Below, one piece after another: positions 46,324-55,645 of a DNA stretch of 64,000 bases. The translations under genes and the position numbers were made by a program. Source of the stretch: Nostoc sp. JL34 (GTDB lineage Bacteria > Cyanobacteriota > Cyanobacteriia > Cyanobacteriales > Nostocaceae); the NCBI RefSeq assembly GCF_017114945.1, contig NZ_JABXKQ010000175.1:1-64000 (forward strand). Direction: 5' to 3'. The stretch's first letter is position 1; every line of letters starts with the position of its first letter. The notes under the pieces were generated by a model. That model did no database searches. It was not told the origin of the DNA and saw only the letters and a program-made list of their open reading frames with translations.

Positions 46324-46629
46324 TCAATCGAACTGAGAAATCACAACCTCTTGATCGGGAAAACGGGCTATGATTGTCAGACTTCCGCCAAGAGATTTAA
46401 TGTATCGAGAGAGCGTGGATATTTGAATATCATCCTGATGCTCAATTTTTGAAAGTGCCGATTGTACCACTCCCATATTCTTGGCCATATCGCTTTGTGT
46501 ATGTCCAAGGGACTCTCGAAGCTCAGAAAGTGTCAATTTGAGCAATGCAAGGTTTGCTTGCATCTCGCTTTCTGCCTGTTGTTCAGGAGTCATTTTTTTA
46601 CGAAGTTCTTTAAATGGCTTCGTCTTCAT
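46324..46629 (-). CDS. XRE-family antitoxin (HigA-like)
   Basis: LRESLGHTQSDMAKNMGVVQSALSKIEHQDDIQISTLSRYIKSLGGSL HTH; overlaps the toxin gene by 4 nt. Confidence 0.88.
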   Translation of the reverse strand: MKTKPFKELRKKMTPEQQAESEMQANLALLKLTLSELRESLGHTQSDMAKNMGVVQSALSKIEHQDDIQISTLSRYIKSLGGSLTIIARFPDQEVVISQFD

Positions 46630-46985
46630 AGGAACCCTTCTGTTTTTAATTCTTCTAAATGTTCGTCATACAACGTATCTGCTTTTGGCACATTCTCCTC
46701 GTACCAGCGATCGTCTCCTCCCTTGTTTCCTCCAAAAAGAAGAATGGCGACTCTCCTTGGATCAAATGCATAGAGTATTCGGTACGGTTCTCCTCTGTGT
46801 TGCACCCTCAACTGTCTCATGTGGGAATGACGTGAGCCGTTTATTTTTGAACTGTAGGGAAAAGGAAGTTCTGGCCCCCGCGCCTCAAGTAGTCGCACTA
46901 CTGTATCTATTGAAACTTGGGTGCTGTCGTCTAGCTCAACCCACCACATTTCAAACTCGTTTGTGAATTCTACCTCCCACGTCAT
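46626..46985 (-). CDS. RelE/HigB-type toxin
   Basis: EFEMWWVELDDSTQVSIDTVVRLLEARGPELPFPYSSKI...MRQLRVQHRGEPYRILYAFDPRRVAILLFGGNKGGDDRWYEE. Confidence 0.9.
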   Translation of the reverse strand: MTWEVEFTNEFEMWWVELDDSTQVSIDTVVRLLEARGPELPFPYSSKINGSRHSHMRQLRVQHRGEPYRILYAFDPRRVAILLFGGNKGGDDRWYEENVPKADTLYDEHLEELKTEGFL

Positions 46986-47432: not shown

Positions 47433-50400
47433 TCACATCATCTGCCGAACCATCAACTGGGCAAACAATCCTTCCATAGTTGCCAACTCTTGAAAAGTTC
47501 CTTGTTGTATAACCCGACCTGCTTGAAGTACATAAATGCGATGAGCGTTGCAGATGGTACTAAGCCGATGAGCAATAACGATTCTAGTTACTTGCAATTT
47601 ATCCAAGCTTTGACTAACTATGGCTTGGGTTGTGTTATCGAGCGCGCTAGTAGCTTCATCAAACAGTAAAATCTTAGGTTTGAGTGCTAATGCTCGGGCA
47701 ATCAATAGCCGTTGTCGTTGTCCACCAGAGAGATTAGTACCGCCTTCACTGACGACTGTGTGCATCCCCATCGGCATGGCAGCAATATCATCTGCTAAAC
47801 CCGCCATTTGAGCTGCTTCCCAAGCTTGGTCAATCGTAAGACCTGCACCACTAGTAATATTATTAAAAATAGAAGCTGACATCAGCCGACTATTTTGCAG
47901 TACAACACCTAATTGACGGCGCACAGCATGAATATCCACAGAGGCTAAATCTTGTCCGTCGTAGTAAACTTTGCCTAATTTGGGGGATTCAAACCCTAAA
48001 AGTAATTTTAATAAAGTTGATTTACCGCTGCCGGAAGGGCCAACAATCGCAATAAATTCTCCAGCTTGAGCATGAATACTAATATTATCTAATACTAAAG
48101 GAAGATCATTAGCATAACCAAAGCTAACACGCTCTAGAGTTAATGAGCCTGAAAGTTTTCCGGGATCTGCTTGGTTAAAGTTAATTTCCGGTTCTGCAAT
48201 CAGAATTGGTTTAGCTAGTTCCCACAAAGGCAAGATTTGCAAAACTTCTACGACTGTACTGCTGAGGCTAGTTACTCCATTGATAAAAGTGCCAAAAGCA
48301 ACGTTAATTGCGAGAAAAGTACCAATAGATAAGCGAGATTCGCCCAATGCCTGGGATTGTGCAATTAAGCCAGCAGCAGACCAAAACAGAGCCGCAGTCG
48401 TTAAAGCAGGTAGTACTTTATTGATCCCAGCAAGACTATCTTCAATACCTTGCGTACTAAGCATTAGTTTTAGTTGCTGAGTATACTGTTGACCCCAATA
48501 AGCAAAGGCACGAGTTTCAGCTTTGGCGACTCTGAGTTTAGCTACTCCATTAATCAACTGTATAACTACACCAAAAATTTTACCTTCATAAGTTAATTCC
48601 GAGCGAGCTTTACGGACGATCGCAACACCGAAGATGATAGTCACAGCAGTATTTATCAGTGCGACTGCACCAGCTAATAGAGCTAAGGAAAAATTGTAGT
48701 AGAACAATAATCCGAGATTGAGCAACGAAAACAAACTAGAAAGGGTTGATTTTAAGATTGTATTACCCAATCTTTGGTGAATTTGATTAATAGCTGTGAC
48801 CCTATAATTTAAGTCACCAACTGAAAAAGACCGGAAAAAAGAAAGCTTGAGATTGAGTAATCGATCCCAAACTGCTGCTTGAGTAGAGGAAGTGGCAAAA
48901 GTTTCTAGCCTAATCGTAGCCAGCCCTTGAATTAATTGAAACAAGATTGCGCCTGCATTAGTAGCCAATAAACCAAAAGCAACTTGACCCAGTAGAGCGC
49001 GATTTCCATCAGGGATAGCTTTGTCAATCAAGATAGCTGTAGCTTGAGGCGTGAGCATTCCTAATGAAGTAACTGTAATTCCCGTCAAGAAAATTACAAT
49101 CAACTCTCTATAATGTCCTTGGAAAGCAAACTGAAGTAAATCTAGAACTTTGAGATGTTTCTGGCTTAAAGGTCGATAAAATATGTAAGCATTTGGAATT
49201 AGTGTTGCTGCCGTGCGAGCATCGACAGGGACAGAGGTTTGTTCGCTAGGCGCATAGAGTTGATAACGGGTATTAGACGTTGGTAACAATGCCACTGGCA
49301 ACTTGGTCTTTTCGGTATATGCCAATATCGGGCCGTAATCCTGTCGCCACCAGTTGTCTGGCAACTTAATTTGCCGCACTCGGATACACGAAGCGCGAGC
49401 GAGAGCCTCTACAGAGTCTTTGATTTCCTGCGAATCTTCGGAAATTGCTGGCGGACGAATTTCAATTCCTAAAGCTCTACCTACAGCACCAGCCGCGACT
49501 AATAAAGGTTGCTGGTTGTCAGTTAAATAGAAATTTTTATTCAACGTTGAGCGATTACTTACTTTGTCTGACCTTGGTTGCAGTACAGATGCTAGTTCTG
49601 TCAAGGTTTGTGTCATTAACTCACGATCGAGGCGTTCCTTTGACTCTAATCTGAGTAATTCTGCATCTATTTCTTGTATAGGATTTTTGATAGCATCTAT
49701 CTTGGTTAAAGAAGTGGAAGAAATTAATGAAATATCAGCAAAATTAGTTTCTGTTGTTGGGACAATACTAGATTCAAACTCAAGGTTTTGTTCGCTACGA
49801 ATCAATTGCAAGTATGTCCCTTCAATTTGCTGTAATTGCTCATGAGTTCCTTGTTGAACTATCTTTCCATGTTCGAGAACAATAATTTCATCACAATCTC
49901 GAATAGTGGAAAGTCGGTGTGCAACAATGATGCAAGTGCAACCACGCGCTTGCAAATTATGACTGACTTGGTTTTCAGTCTCGGCATCTAAGGCACTGCT
50001 GGCTTCATCTAAAATCAGGATGCTAGGATTATTAACCAAGGCACGCGCAATTTCCAAGCGTTGTCGTTGACCACCGCTTAAATTAGTAGCACCCTCTAAC
50101 AGGTCTGCATTGTATGCTCCTGGTAGAGAAACAATCACATCATGAATTTGAGCATCTTGACAAGCCTGAACTAAATGTTGGTTGGGTATAGTACTGTCCC
50201 AAAGTGTTAAGTTATCCTTGACACTGCCAGCAAAGAAAAAGATTTCTTGATCTACCGCAGAGATAGAATTGACCAATACTTGGCGCTCAATTCGTTCTTT
50301 GGGTTCACCATCAAAGTGAATTTCTCCCTGCCAGGGTTCGTAAAGTCCACACAAAAGTTTGGCAATAGTAGACTTACCACAACCACTAGCACCTACTAAA

Positions 50401-51998
50401 GCAACTCGTTGCCCTTTTTTGACACAGAGATTAAAATTTTCTATTATCGGTGGAGCTATTTGGCTGTAGCCAAAGGTGACATTCCGTAATTCAACATCCC
50501 CTTGTAATTTCAGCTTGGGAGCAGAGGATAAATTTTTCTTTTCCTTCTGTTCCCTGCCTTTTTTCGGTTCTAACTGTGGGTCAATGGGGTTCTGTAAAAC
50601 GTCATCAAGGCGAATGAGATTGCTTTCCATATCTTGAAGGTCGGTTCCTAAGTTAACCAGATTATTTACAGGCTCAAGAAACCTTTGCGTCATCCCTTGG
50701 AAAGCAATTAACATGCCGATGCTCATAGCTCCATCCATGACTCGCAAACCGCCGATCGCTAGCATGAGTAGAGATGCACTACCTGACAGAAATGTTGGTA
50801 AAATTCCCAGTGTTTGGTTTGTTACTTCAAATTGTTGACGTATATTGATAGCTTTGGTGTAGTTACCTGCCCAGCGAGAGAAAAAATCCGGCTCTAATGC
50901 AGATGCTTTAAGTGTCTCTATACTTTGAAGCCCAGAAATCTCTATCCCTTGGACTTTCCCATACTCTTGCATCAATTTGGTATTAGCATCTGTGCGGTAC
51001 CTTCTAACCCATTGCAAAGTAACTAAATTTACAGCGACAAAGGCGATCGCAATTGAAGTTAGTAATACATCGTATTGCAGCATGACTATTACATACAGAA
51101 ATATAGAAGCTGCGGCGATCGCACTAGTAGCTAACTTCCCGGAAAGCAGGTTTGCTATACTATCGTTGAGTTGTATTCGACTACTAATTTCTCCTGCAAA
51201 TCGCTGATCGTAAAAACTGATGCTCAGGCGTAAAATATGCCAGAGGAATTGACTTTTCATGCTCGCGGACAGCTTGATTTTTAACTGACGCAGAAATTGC
51301 AACTGTAACAGTGTTAAAAATCCATTGAGTCCGGCTGTCAAAATCATCCCTAAAATTAGCGGCCGCAACCATTCATTTCTACCGCCAATTAATACATGAT
51401 CTACAAAAACTTGAGAAAATACAGGCAGAGCTAATCCTGGAATGACTTGCAAAAAACCTGCTACCACACAGTAAACCATAGCACCAACAGATCCTTGCAG
51501 ACGTGACCATAAACTCAAGATAGTGCTAGGTTTGCGTCCCCCTGTTTGGAAACCTAAAGCAGGTTCTAAAACCAGCACAACACCTGTGTAGGAGCCGCTA
51601 AATTCTTTCCATGAGACACTACGCCGTCCAGTAGCCGGATCGTTTAGATAAACTCGTTTCTTGCTTAAACCTTCTACGACTAGGAAATGGTTAAAGTTCC
51701 AAAATACAATGTAAGGGAGTTTGAGATTCCATAGTCCATCTAAGTCTTTCTTGTAGCTCTTAGTGCTAAGTCCATAGGTTCTAGCTACTTTAAGAATGTT
51801 GAAAGCACTAACACCATCGCGTGATACTCCACAAGCTTGCCTTAGTTCCGTCAGTGAAACAATACGACCATAGTACGCCAAAATAATTCCCAAGGCAGCA
51901 GCCCCACATTCTACTACCTCCATTTGCAGTAGAGTCGGAGTATGACACCGCTTGCTTTTACGCCCTATTATCCTCTGTAGATTTTGCCACCACATCAT
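47433..51998 (-). CDS. fused C39 peptidase / two-module ABC exporter (NHLP bacteriocin-type)
   Basis: 1521 aa: N-terminal C39 (LLQMEVVECGAAALGIILAYYGR...FNHFLVVEGLSKKRVYLNDPATGRR); ABC module 1 (GASGCGKST, LSGGQRQRLEIARAL); linker; ABC module 2 (GPSGSGKST, LSGGQRQRLLIARAL). Confidence 0.93.
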   Translation of the reverse strand: MMWWQNLQRIIGRKSKRCHTPTLLQMEVVECGAAALGIILAYYGRIVSLTELRQACGVSRDGVSAFNILKVARTYGLSTKSYKKDLDGLWNLKLPYIVFWNFNHFLVVEGLSKKRVYLNDPATGRRSVSWKEFSGSYTGVVLVLEPALGFQTGGRKPSTILSLWSRLQGSVGAMVYCVVAGFLQVIPGLALPVFSQVFVDHVLIGGRNEWLRPLILGMILTAGLNGFLTLLQLQFLRQLKIKLSASMKSQFLWHILRLSISFYDQRFAGEISSRIQLNDSIANLLSGKLATSAIAAASIFLYVIVMLQYDVLLTSIAIAFVAVNLVTLQWVRRYRTDANTKLMQEYGKVQGIEISGLQSIETLKASALEPDFFSRWAGNYTKAINIRQQFEVTNQTLGILPTFLSGSASLLMLAIGGLRVMDGAMSIGMLIAFQGMTQRFLEPVNNLVNLGTDLQDMESNLIRLDDVLQNPIDPQLEPKKGREQKEKKNLSSAPKLKLQGDVELRNVTFGYSQIAPPIIENFNLCVKKGQRVALVGASGCGKSTIAKLLCGLYEPWQGEIHFDGEPKERIERQVLVNSISAVDQEIFFFAGSVKDNLTLWDSTIPNQHLVQACQDAQIHDVIVSLPGAYNADLLEGATNLSGGQRQRLEIARALVNNPSILILDEASSALDAETENQVSHNLQARGCTCIIVAHRLSTIRDCDEIIVLEHGKIVQQGTHEQLQQIEGTYLQLIRSEQNLEFESSIVPTTETNFADISLISSTSLTKIDAIKNPIQEIDAELLRLESKERLDRELMTQTLTELASVLQPRSDKVSNRSTLNKNFYLTDNQQPLLVAAGAVGRALGIEIRPPAISEDSQEIKDSVEALARASCIRVRQIKLPDNWWRQDYGPILAYTEKTKLPVALLPTSNTRYQLYAPSEQTSVPVDARTAATLIPNAYIFYRPLSQKHLKVLDLLQFAFQGHYRELIVIFLTGITVTSLGMLTPQATAILIDKAIPDGNRALLGQVAFGLLATNAGAILFQLIQGLATIRLETFATSSTQAAVWDRLLNLKLSFFRSFSVGDLNYRVTAINQIHQRLGNTILKSTLSSLFSLLNLGLLFYYNFSLALLAGAVALINTAVTIIFGVAIVRKARSELTYEGKIFGVVIQLINGVAKLRVAKAETRAFAYWGQQYTQQLKLMLSTQGIEDSLAGINKVLPALTTAALFWSAAGLIAQSQALGESRLSIGTFLAINVAFGTFINGVTSLSSTVVEVLQILPLWELAKPILIAEPEINFNQADPGKLSGSLTLERVSFGYANDLPLVLDNISIHAQAGEFIAIVGPSGSGKSTLLKLLLGFESPKLGKVYYDGQDLASVDIHAVRRQLGVVLQNSRLMSASIFNNITSGAGLTIDQAWEAAQMAGLADDIAAMPMGMHTVVSEGGTNLSGGQRQRLLIARALALKPKILLFDEATSALDNTTQAIVSQSLDKLQVTRIVIAHRLSTICNAHRIYVLQAGRVIQQGTFQELATMEGLFAQLMVRQMM

Positions 51999-52000
51999 AT

Positions 52001-52333
52001 CTAGTTAATCCCACTCCAGGATTTTAAAAGCGGGAAGAAAAAAGTAATCAGGGCGCGATCGCGTCCAATTGAGTCTAGCCCTTTTTCCTTTAAAATTGGT
52101 GTGAGCTTCTGTATTGCTTGCAAGCTTTGATGCAAAGTTTGGCGTTGCTGTGCCATTACCTGTTTGTCTGCGTTTTGCCACTGTCGTTGCAAAGAACTAG
52201 CTTCGTTATCCTGTGCTTGCAGTTGCTCTAATTTAGTGCGTACTAGTTGTAGCTGTTTTATCAGTTCGCTGTGGGCTAGTGTCGCCAGTAGTTTCATATA
52301 TATCCCAGAATTGCTGGTTGTGAAAGCGATCAA
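52001..52333 (-). CDS. small coiled-coil hypothetical protein
   Basis: 110 aa with Gln/Leu-rich helix, between GT and exporter in the same orientation; internal ATG MKLLATLAHSEL is an alternative start. Confidence 0.6.
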   Translation of the reverse strand: MIAFTTSNSGIYMKLLATLAHSELIKQLQLVRTKLEQLQAQDNEASSLQRQWQNADKQVMAQQRQTLHQSLQAIQKLTPILKEKGLDSIGRDRALITFFFPLLKSWSGIN

Positions 52334-52350
52334 AATAGAAAAATCCTGCC

Positions 52351-52399
52351 TTCCATTGATGTGCGATACACATTTTCTTCGTGTCGCACATCAATGGAA
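52351..52399. terminator. long intergenic hairpin inside the operon (terminator/attenuator/processing site candidate)
   Basis: ttccattgatgtgcga(ta)cac ... gtgtcgcacatcaatggaa, 19-bp stem with 2-nt bulge. Confidence 0.6.
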
Positions 52400-52495
52400 A
52401 TGGATAATCTCAGCAATGATCGAAAACAGTAATATTATTACTCATGGCAACACTTTACTTTTTCAAAACAATTTTCCAGAGAGCAACTATCTAAT

Positions 52496-53563
52496 TTAAA
52501 TCAATTGATAAACTTCACTTTTTTGAAACCTGTTTAAGAAATAGTCAGCCCTAAGCTTGCTTCTGGTTTCACAAGTTTTCAAATAATTGTGAGTATCTAA
52601 AATTAATGAAGTGTCCAACGCTTTTTCTGCTGCTTCAGACAAGCTATTGAAGTACATGGGATAATCTTTGCCCAAGTACTCAACTACTGCTGGTAAGGGA
52701 TTAATTAAGATTGGAGTTGCTCTGGCAATACATTCTATAACTACATTGTTAGCACTGCTATCATATAAATTAAGAAAAACTATATTTTCTGATAAGAGTT
52801 CATCGTATTCATTATTTGGCATATAAATAACTTCTGTAGTATTTTTGTAAAAAGACTGCTCTATTTGTAATTGGTCAATTTCTTTCTCAATTTGCATTAA
52901 AGTATTTATTTCTTGCTCTATGTAAAGCGAATACATAGGTAGTAATCTAATTTTTTCGTATTTTAAGGAATTATTTTGAGGAATAGGTAACTGGTAAATG
53001 GCATGAAGCTTGCGTAACCACCAGCCAACTTGCACAATTTTTTTATGACTATTATTCAGGAATTTCTCAAAATTAAATTGTAATTCTGGTATTTCTGTAG
53101 GATGAATCAAAGTAGAAACTGGTTTACCTGTTTCTACTCTCACCCATTGAGCTTGATACTCAGATAATGTAAATAAACCTACGCAATAATCAAGACTTTG
53201 TTTCCAGATATTTTTAGCAAAGATTGTTTGAGGAGAATAATGATACCAAAACCAAGTAGGCATATTTGGCGGATTATGTATAAAACCCACCCAAGGTTGA
53301 GTATAGGGTGTAATGCCTTTTTCCTCTGAAGTGGCAAGAGAAGTGTAAAGACCATGCTTTTTCATTTTTTCTAAAACCACATCGGGTCTTTTACCCGATC
53401 TCTTGTGTTTATAAGCAAAGTTATTCTCTATAAAGCCATCAAAGTAGATGCCGCGATCTTTATGCAGTGGTTTTAAAGCATTGACAGCAAAATCCCAACC
53501 ACTACGATGAAAATTAAAGATGATTTGGTTAGATAAATTAATTTTACAAATAGTATGGTTCAT
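52496..53563 (-). CDS. glycosyltransferase-like protein (GT-B/GT4-like)
   Basis: HNPPNMPTWFWYHYSPQTIF..LFTLSEYQAQWV and LNLYDSSANNVVIECIARATPILINPLPAVVEYLG acceptor/donor-domain patterns. Confidence 0.7.
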   Translation of the reverse strand: MNHTICKINLSNQIIFNFHRSGWDFAVNALKPLHKDRGIYFDGFIENNFAYKHKRSGKRPDVVLEKMKKHGLYTSLATSEEKGITPYTQPWVGFIHNPPNMPTWFWYHYSPQTIFAKNIWKQSLDYCVGLFTLSEYQAQWVRVETGKPVSTLIHPTEIPELQFNFEKFLNNSHKKIVQVGWWLRKLHAIYQLPIPQNNSLKYEKIRLLPMYSLYIEQEINTLMQIEKEIDQLQIEQSFYKNTTEVIYMPNNEYDELLSENIVFLNLYDSSANNVVIECIARATPILINPLPAVVEYLGKDYPMYFNSLSEAAEKALDTSLILDTHNYLKTCETRSKLRADYFLNRFQKSEVYQLI

Positions 53564-53570
53564 AATTCAT

Positions 53571-54734
53571 TTACAACCAGCTCTCGATTAAGTCGCACGC
53601 TTCGATTAAACCCTGTTCAGCTTTGATTTTTTCACCGACTTCAACAGCCCGTTTTTTATAATCAGGTGTCAATATTTTCTTCTGTAAAATATTAGCTATT
53701 CCATCCACTGTCAGCTTCTGTGAGTCCATAACAGATCCTACCCCTAATCTCAGTACCTGTAGCGCATTATAAAATTGATCGTTACCTAAGGGTTCTACCA
53801 GCATTGGACAGCCATTACACAATGACCGCGCGATTGTCCCCACACCGCCATGAGTAATCAAAGCGGCTGCACGGGAAAACAACCAATTGTGGGATATCAA
53901 ACCATCTAGAAACATAACGTTATCTCGCTCGATGTCTAATGGTAAATGGCTTTCATTGAAGCCTGCCCAGCCTTGTTGAATCACAATTCGGCGACCTAAT
54001 TTAGCCGCAGCGCGGACGTGGATCTCTACAACTTCCTGAGGATTTTCTACAGGTACACTGCTATATGAAAGCACTAAAGGTTTGGGTTCCTGCTCAACAA
54101 ATTCCTTAAGCTCTTGACTGGGTTGCCAGTCAATCCAATCTGGATCTTCATAAAACCAGAAACCTGTTTGATGTGCATGGGAATATTCTGGAAGTAACTC
54201 GCAAAGATAGGGACTAGCAGCCAAAATTAAGCGGTTCAAATCTTTGGTATTTTGCAAACTATCGCCAGAAGATGCTTGGTTTTCAGTTTCTGACTTAGGA
54301 AAGCAAAGAAAAAACGGAGTAACACAAGATTCAACCCAACAAATATCATAAATATCTGCTGTCATTGCTGCGACTCTTTTTTGCAAGCTACAAGAAATTA
54401 GCAAATCTGCATCATGACATGCCTCCATAACACAGTCCACACTGTCGATTAAGTTATGATCGAACGCACTTACAGATTTTGTTGTCTCTAATGACTCCTC
54501 CCTCAACAAAGGCAAATGGTTCCATTCTCGTGCATAACGTTGCGCTTCTTGAGGACCAATCTGTGGACGACCAACATCAGCTACTTGCAGTCCAGCTTTT
54601 AAAACATAGGGATGTATTGCCTGATTTACCACCATACGTACTTGATGTCCTCTAGTTTTCAGGACTTTTCCAAGTGCAATAAAGGGCAAGTGGTCTCCTA
54701 ATGTACCGTAAGTTGTGATGACTATAGTGCTCAT
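53571..54734 (-). CDS. GT1/UGT-family glycosyltransferase
   Basis: IVITTYGTLGDHLPFIALGKVLKTRGHQVRMVVN and ALITHGGVGTIARSLCNGCPMLVEPLGNDQFYNA. Confidence 0.9.
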   Translation of the reverse strand: MSTIVITTYGTLGDHLPFIALGKVLKTRGHQVRMVVNQAIHPYVLKAGLQVADVGRPQIGPQEAQRYAREWNHLPLLREESLETTKSVSAFDHNLIDSVDCVMEACHDADLLISCSLQKRVAAMTADIYDICWVESCVTPFFLCFPKSETENQASSGDSLQNTKDLNRLILAASPYLCELLPEYSHAHQTGFWFYEDPDWIDWQPSQELKEFVEQEPKPLVLSYSSVPVENPQEVVEIHVRAAAKLGRRIVIQQGWAGFNESHLPLDIERDNVMFLDGLISHNWLFSRAAALITHGGVGTIARSLCNGCPMLVEPLGNDQFYNALQVLRLGVGSVMDSQKLTVDGIANILQKKILTPDYKKRAVEVGEKIKAEQGLIEACDLIESWL

Positions 54735-54795
54735 GTATTAGGTAGTTAATAAGTAGATTGGTCAAGAATATCGTAATTGCGAAACCAATGGGAAG

Positions 54796-54822
54796 TTAGG
54801 TGGAATTCATATTTCCACCTAA
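54796..54822. repeat. perfect 10-bp hairpin between precursor and GT gene
   Basis: ttaggtggaa-ttcatat-ttccacctaa. Confidence 0.75.
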
Positions 54823-54840
54823 TAGTAGACCTTTAAAATT

Positions 54841-54880
54841 CATGATTTGGAGGGTGAGTTAAACTCCCTTGGAAATCATG
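54841..54880. repeat. second imperfect hairpin between precursor and GT gene
   Basis: catgatttggagggtgagttaaactcccttggaaatcatg; 8-bp outer and 5-bp inner stem. Confidence 0.6.
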
Positions 54881-55026
54881 AGAATATCTGAGAACTAACG
54901 CAATTTCATGAAAATAGATTTTGACCTTTTATCGAACTAAATTTTCAATAAATTCAATCAAAATTTGCTATTTCTCATGGATTTTGCTTAAACATTAGCT
55001 AAATCTATACATATTGCATTCACTCA

Positions 55027-55242
55027 TTATTTTATGACGAGTTCTATAGAGCCGTTTGCTATCTTTGCATCGAGTCCTTCGTCGTCAAAGAGGATACTTT
55101 GTCTAGTGTATAATTCGTCCTGTCCTTGGAATTTGAAGTATATACCCAGTCCGCCTATTATCTTCATCAAATCTTCTTCTGATAGTTCACCCTCTATAAA
55201 CACATTGCTGGTGCTTTGGTCTTGTTCTTGTGAAGGATTCAT
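55027..55242 (-). CDS. putative double-glycine-leader precursor peptide (RiPP/bacteriocin-like)
   Basis: MNPSQEQDQSTSNVFIEGELSEEDLMKIIGG|LGIYFKFQGQDELYTRQSILFDDEGLDAKIANGSIELVIK; GELSEEDLMKIIGG leader; RBS-like aaaggaaag upstream; same strand as the C39 exporter. Confidence 0.75.
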   Translation of the reverse strand: MNPSQEQDQSTSNVFIEGELSEEDLMKIIGGLGIYFKFQGQDELYTRQSILFDDEGLDAKIANGSIELVIK

Positions 55243-55582
55243 GTTTCTTTCCTTTGTTAATGTCTAAATTTATCAATACTTCACCATTTACGAGGACAAG
55301 TTGATAATGCTCTAACTATCAACTTACTTTTATCTGAGACTGGGCAAAAACAATAAGTCCAAAAAATTCCTTCCAGGTTTCCCGTAAGTTTCTTTTTACC
55401 TATTGCCCGCAGGCAGTATAAAGAGTTCGATAGTCTAAGCTCCCTTATAAGCGAAAAGCTCCTGCATGGGTTATTTTGCCAGTTTTGCCAAATTTTGTAA
55501 GGCTCTTAATTTGGTGAAGGTATTTTACTATGCACTAAAATACAGCTTATCAACAGCATAATCAAGGGTTACTACAAAACAT

Positions 55583-55645
55583 CCTACTTTTCCTACTTTT
55601 CCTACTTTTCCTACTTTTCCCACTTTTCCCACTTTTCCTACTTTA
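55583..55645. repeat. 9-bp tandem repeat, 7 copies
   Basis: cctactttt x4, cccactttt x2, cctacttta. Confidence 0.9.

Follow-up and report, generated by a model that had tools for sequence, protein, structure and literature searches.

The stretch of DNA analysed here (hereafter the window) comprises 64,000 nucleotides from Nostoc sp. JL34, whose genome measures 7.8 Mb. Five open reading frames (ORFs) lie together on its minus strand, as an earlier note on this sequence had claimed, and in the direction of transcription they run from a short peptide through a 292-base spacer to a GT1-family glycosyltransferase (hereafter GT1), a second glycosyltransferase-like protein (GT2), a 110-aa ORF and a 1521-aa exporter:

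55027..55242, minus strand: precursor peptide, 71 aa (leader HMM, 27.4 bits; GT1-adjacent homologues in four relatives)
54735..55026, minus strand: spacer between peptide and GT1 with a strong RNA fold, including TTAGGTGGAA...TTCCACCTAA (minimum free energy, shuffles)
53571..54734, minus strand: GT1-family UDP-sugar glycosyltransferase, 387 aa (Pfam UDPGT, PDB matches, clade tree)
52496..53563, minus strand: GT2 protein, probable GT-B glycosyltransferase, 355 aa (orthologue identity, SenB-like C-terminus)
52001..52333, minus strand: remnant of an NHLM HlyD membrane-fusion adaptor, 110 aa (tblastn, DNA identity, TIGR03794)
47433..51998, minus strand: fused exporter, 1521 aa (TIGR03796, TIGR03797, PF03412)

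The peptide can be read from its sequence as a C39-type double-glycine (GG) precursor carrying GELSEEDLMKIIGG, with an acidic, GG-ending leader of 31 aa (MNPSQEQDQSTSNVFIEGELSEEDLMKIIGG) and a 40-aa core without Cys (LGIYFKFQGQDELYTRQSILFDDEGLDAKIANGSIELVIK), in which three Ser/Thr, two Tyr and one NGS are candidate acceptors for a sugar. A leader HMM, made from 18 GG leaders of which this is one, found it as the sole match among the 490 small ORFs of the window and found no GG-leader peptide at 16 unrelated UGT control loci, which argues against a chance ORF. Its gene is also preceded by a Shine-Dalgarno-like AAGGAAAG, with similar sites before its homologues, so that leader, ribosome-binding site and homologues all uphold the earlier identification of a GG-leader peptide. 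Over 17 loci of more distant UGT genes (59 kb) the HMM gave a single match, in genome G311, at a locus that itself contains a GT1 fragment within an NHLM locus. The precursor matches none of the NHLP/Nif11-type leader models in an NCBIfam scan; its sole match there is bacteriocin_sig, at 14.1 bits and below the cut-off of 15.7.

When the window peptide was used as a lone query against 210 Nostocaceae genomes, a search independent of any focus on the surroundings of GT1, it was found in one other place (E=6.9e-8), in Nostoc calcicola, where a 63-aa homologue lies directly upstream of a GT1-GT2 pair. A five-sequence peptide profile returned five matches at E<1e-13, each adjoining GT1, and the rest no better than 1e-5, in a search that is partly circular because the profile was built from the same five matches. 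Weaker leader matches in Nostocaceae were set aside, as most of the loci examined were of lanthipeptide type or encoded other peptides, with no GT1. The leader is 76% identical to that of N. calcicola and the core 27%, with rough dN/dS values of 0.47 and 0.94 that are imprecise because of the short lengths. Leaders are conserved and cores hypervariable, a pattern that fits a precursor with a diversifying core and a held recognition part. Elsewhere (L108 12944-14174 and L117 11819-12067), three successive GG precursors in G311 have in common DSSYxSYxGAxGT and an FP end, and a G400 precursor adjoining two GT1s has a related SFDGAKGT and an FP end; this core motif near GT1 genes is a possible glycosylation site.

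The spacer that separates peptide and GT1 folds strongly as RNA (MFE -69.5 kcal/mol, z = -4.2 against shuffles, 0 of 200 as low), and no intrinsic terminator was found in it. Perhaps it serves as an attenuator, and such a folded spacer could favour expression of the precursor over that of the enzyme.

GT1 enzymes transfer sugar from a UDP donor, and the 387-aa protein is of this UDPGT/GT28 type, as previously proposed (Pfam PF00201/PF06722, UDPGT E=1.2e-10), with GTLGD at its N-terminus and HGGVGT...DQ at its C-terminus. The closest solved kin are the sterol 3-beta-glucosyltransferases (1.6e-26), whose GSRGD aligns its GD with that of GTLGD, and GtfA/GtfB/GtfD (1e-23 to 3e-22 for GtfA/GtfB), although the similarity to both is low and lies chiefly in the donor-binding half. 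Their substrates are sterols and nonribosomal glycopeptide antibiotics respectively, which counts against a ribosomal peptide as the acceptor of GT1. Among curated models the best matches are antibiotic-inactivating enzymes (Rgt 4.2e-23, MGT 5.9e-19, OleI 5.5e-7), all far under their cut-offs, with 82 bits against 800 for Rgt and 68 against 260 for MGT. Macrolide and rifamycin glycosyltransferases inactivate by glycosylation, and one could imagine GT1 as a self-protection enzyme that inactivates in this way the peptide, or whatever it targets, within the producing cell, the exported active product being free of sugar; indeed, the cassette shows no other immunity gene. However, the sugar would then have to be removed after export, and the operon has no glycosidase gene, whilst several related loci hold two or more different glycosyltransferases, beyond what silencing would need. 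We regard self-protection as very unlikely.

In a maximum-likelihood tree, 16 GT1s form one clade (support 100/100) separate from 13 other cyanobacterial UGTs, one of which, on a very long branch, attaches at the base of the clade. A GG peptide adjoins nine of the 16 members, and this adjacency requires three changes on the tree, against a mean of 7.8 with shuffled labels (0 of 500 as few); the simplest history would be an old association of GT1 and peptide with two losses. The dN/dS of GT1 is roughly 0.35-0.55. A phylum-level search gave nothing outside the window at E<=1e-50, in a sample that left out several known carriers.

What, then, do the relatives keep? A homologue of the GG peptide adjoins GT1 in N. 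calcicola (GT1 76% and GT2 81% identical), in Brasilonema sp. CT11 (GT1 71%) and in the genomes G386 and G379. In G386, HlyD and a fused exporter (86%) are followed by a GT4-type gene on the other strand, by the GG peptide and by GT1 (64%); next comes an unannotated protein, present twice and both times divided between two ORFs. The genes of G379 are the same (exporter 87%, GT1 65%), except that GT4 is present twice and the unannotated protein takes forms of 319/325 aa. This family is also represented once alongside peptide and GT1 in Brasilonema; it has a WIDCD motif, is termed GT-A-like by sight only, and had no match in Pfam, NCBIfam or PDB. The exporter is linked to peptide and GT1 in G386 and G379, in a gene order permuted with respect to the window, and none was found near the pair in N. 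calcicola or Brasilonema. Of the five genes that the earlier note took together, peptide and GT1 stay linked in all four relatives, the exporter joins them in two, and GT2 does so in N. calcicola only. On the note's own condition, that the peptide be conserved with the glycosyltransferases and the exporter in related genomes, the proposal thus holds in part. This comparison establishes the peptide-GT1 linkage as genuine at the level of sequence.

Further out, GT1s are about 45-50% identical. In G400, the NHLM ABC1 and ABC2 genes enclose two GT1s and a GG peptide (HlyD, ABC1, a radical SAM protein, two GT1s, GG peptide, ABC2). A peptide with a different GG leader, missed by the leader HMM, lies upstream of GT1 in G174 and G216; divergent genes nearby in G174 encode a DXD-motif glycosyltransferase (PF04488), a DUF1647 protein, an epimerase and a GT10 fucosyltransferase, and G216 has ORFs matching these sugar genes, called as homologues by sight. 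Precursor-like peptides with a leader unlike the NHLM type were seen upstream of GT1 at two loci, L105 and L106, with cores FCFGMNGSGGGG...RRR and FCVGMNGSGGGG...KK and adjoining GT1, GT10, DXD-glycosyltransferase and epimerase genes. Counter-examples to the linkage are four Rhizonema/Scytonema genomes (GT1 73-76% identical), where no GG peptide was found in the 0.6-3.1 kb of available upstream sequence.

GT2 is less readily placed. The 355-aa ORF that the earlier note called glycosyltransferase-like is present, and it is probably a GT-B glycosyltransferase, only probably since the assignment rests on weak similarity of the C-terminus (SenB model, E=0.001; hhalign to a GT4, E=0.11); it has no Pfam glycosyltransferase match and no GT-A family match. 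An AF2 model from two sequences reached a mean pLDDT of 29.6, and the best matches of a profile of GT2 kin to solved structures cover only the TPR part of its relatives. GT2 is 81% identical to the L097/L101 orthologue and 55-66% to TPR-bearing forms; its other relatives are mostly 460-500 aa long with an N-terminal TPR domain. Its dN/dS is roughly 0.43. As a conserved partner of the peptide GT2 was rejected: the two are adjacent elsewhere only in N. calcicola, and most other relatives are TPR-bearing proteins in loci without the peptide.

Could the glycosyltransferases instead serve to make or modify a glycan of the cell surface or the extracellular space, with the GG peptide travelling along as an unmodified bacteriocin or signal? 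The wider GT2 family, some members of which are accompanied by another ABC exporter in their peptide-free loci, would suit this reading, as would the different setting of GT1 in G199, G415 and G416 (in G199 and G415 it neighbours a repeat protein of 700 aa), the alginate-lyase gene found close to GT1 in G379, and the many cyanobacterial GG peptides without an evident modifying enzyme (PMC3140520). It accounts less well for a peptide and GT1 that remain linked despite permuted gene orders and differing second glycosyltransferases, or for the search of the 210 Nostocaceae genomes, in which every close homologue of the peptide turned up beside GT1. On balance, we consider a surface-glycan role for these enzymes rather unlikely. 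As relatives keep peptide and GT1 together whilst rearranging all else, we are probably dealing with a sugar-coated peptide of an undescribed kind.

The route of export is indicated by the 1521-aa ORF, a full NHLM_micro_ABC1 (TIGR03796, 1421.8 bits, cut-off 853.3) followed by a full NHLM_micro_ABC2 (TIGR03797, 1315.2 bits, cut-off 709.4). It consists of a C39 peptidase at residues 21-146 (PF03412, E=7.9e-36), NHLM ABC1 to residue 734 and NHLM ABC2 at 830-1520, and the C39 motifs QMEVVECG, NHFLVVEG and NDP as well as both Walker A/LSGGQ sets can be seen in the ORF; compared with G386/G379 its dN/dS is about 0.25. The C39-peptidase exporter described before is thus present, but as two complete fused NHLM subunits and not one C39/ABC half. 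Exporters of the C39 kind use their peptidase domain to cleave the precursor behind the GG, and their ABC part carries the core out of the cell.

The 110-aa ORF, previously taken for a small coiled-coil protein, is a degraded NHLM HlyD adaptor, and as a functional coiled-coil partner it was rejected. Residues 101-179 of the intact G386 HlyD are matched at 52291-52055 (62% tblastn identity, E=3.7e-24) and residues 462-480 at 52060-52004 (74%, E=3e-7), with 75-86% DNA identity across both pieces, and TIGR03794 matches at E=5.8e-6 over model positions 85-153 of 421. In intact relatives HlyD has 480 aa and its stop lies just ahead of the exporter start; the window copy has lost the first 100 residues and 282 internal codons, with a junction at GCGATCGC, and about 98 of 480 codons remain. 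With the N-terminal part and most of HlyD gone, the remnant is unlikely to work as a normal adaptor, and export must either borrow one of the three complete NHLM HlyDs found elsewhere in the same genome, each accompanied by NHLM exporter genes, or the locus is decaying. A decaying locus, from which the peptide would not be exported in JL34, would be compatible with our main reading for the relatives; beyond the reduction of HlyD, it would be in keeping with the frequent truncation of cyanobacterial bacteriocin clusters (PMC3140520). Yet every other ORF is intact, the three HlyDs elsewhere could serve, and exporter, GT1 and GT2 have dN/dS values of 0.25-0.55, although these are long-term averages compatible with recent decay. 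Decay is, in our estimation, unlikely.

How does this arrangement compare with known systems? Cyanobacterial bacteriocin group VII is defined by its fused exporter (Wang, Fewer and Sivonen 2011, PMC3140520), and group VII/NHLM exporters (TIGR03796/TIGR03797/TIGR03794) have the same large fusion of C39-ABC and ABC parts, with nearby GG-leader peptides of variable core. The window has the fused C39-ABC1 and ABC2 exporter and a GG-leader precursor nearby, and the HlyD gene of the cluster, intact in G386 and G379, is represented by the remnant; it differs from group VII in this broken HlyD and in GT1 as the constant partner of the peptide. The word glycosyltransferase occurs nowhere in the group VII paper (PMC3140520).

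Glycocins (sublancin, glycocin F, thermoglycocin) likewise combine a small leader-bearing precursor, a glycosyltransferase and a C39 exporter in one cluster, but they rely on SunS-type GT-A S/O-glycosyltransferases and have disulfide-bonded cores (PMC10373908, PMC12457901). The enzyme in the window is of the GT-B/UDPGT type, with neither a SunS/GccA-type GT-A glycosyltransferase nor a Cys-containing, disulfide-bonded core, and a glycocin identity was rejected. The glycosylated lanthipeptides cacaoidin and NAI-112 are also ribosomal peptides with dedicated glycosyltransferases, three from two families in the cacaoidin cluster (PMC8068269), but they come from actinomycetes and their cores are thioether-crosslinked, whereas the core here has no Cys. 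Among the window ORFs scanned there was no LanM, YcaO or radical SAM, in line with the earlier note, which had seen no lanthionine synthetase, radical SAM or YcaO gene. Few glycosylated ribosomal peptides are known; from bacteria, a 2021 paper lists cacaoidin, the glycocins and NAI-112 alone (PMC8068269). We found no description of GT1 with GG peptides in cyanobacteria in the open-access literature, and it is within that literature that the locus can be called undescribed, as the earlier note had it. A leader-bearing ribosomal precursor and a dedicated glycosyltransferase in the cluster, the general marks of a glycosylated RiPP, are both found, given the linkage in Nostoc and Brasilonema, and the locus appears to resemble a glycosylated RiPP cluster whilst falling into no described subclass tested here.

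Taken together, we lean, if only slightly, towards a glycosylated-peptide (RiPP-like) cassette joined to an NHLM/group VII peptide exporter, and a glycosylated product seems plausible. The ribosome would make the 71-aa precursor; GT1, a UDP-sugar-dependent enzyme like GtfB and the sterol glucosyltransferases, would place a sugar on a Ser, Thr, Tyr or Asn of the core in the cytosol, before cleavage and export; the C39 domain of the exporter would cut after GG, and the fused ABC1-ABC2 would export the product via the HlyD adaptor, supplied in trans for the window copy unless the locus is decaying. That GT1 accepts the peptide, and in this order of steps, we infer from the linkage, and the product would presumably act as a bacteriocin or signal. 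The glycan may be lengthened or diversified by GT2 or, in the relatives, by the GT4, GT-A-like or GT10 enzymes; since the identity of this second glycosyltransferase changes from relative to relative, such a later role is more likely for it than initiation of the glycan. More tentatively, and with somewhat less than even confidence, we posit a new cyanobacterial class of glycosylated ribosomal peptides, with a dedicated GT1 clade, mostly Cys-free GG precursors, hypervariable cores, NHLM export and interchangeable second-layer glycosyltransferases (GT-B, GT4, GT-A-like, GT10 with epimerase). Were this true, a GT1/GtfB-like enzyme acting on a ribosomal Cys-free peptide would add a new enzyme family and a new precursor type to this small group of peptides, and the swapping of second glycosyltransferases among relatives would give a natural set for glycan engineering. 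The gene set is small, with clear orthologues in Nostoc calcicola FACHB-3891 and Brasilonema sp. CT11, which makes the idea directly testable.

Several other features were seen in the same genome. On contig C158 (L125 11063-13951), a further NHLM operon has several GG peptides, some of them near-identical and arranged in tandem (MSDNIKPVELSAEELDNVAGG...), and on contig C9 (L126 8259-13568) a second fused NHLM exporter of 1769 aa is accompanied by an intact HlyD and several GG peptides. Within the window, a HigBA-like toxin-antitoxin pair (Gp49-like and HTH_3; 46324-46985, minus strand) lies directly downstream of the exporter, and a 9-base tandem repeat, TCCTACTTT, stands in seven copies at 55582-55644, about 340 bases upstream of the peptide gene. 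At 19150-41865 on the plus strand, a TPP enzyme and a Glu/Leu-type dehydrogenase (ScyA/ScyB-like) open a biosynthetic cluster that continues with GT4, prephenate dehydrogenase, DHQ synthase, anthranilate synthase, IGPS and TrpA and also holds tyrosinase, TrpB-like, TrpD-like and DAHP synthase genes, which we take, from their content, to be those for the UV sunscreen scytonemin.
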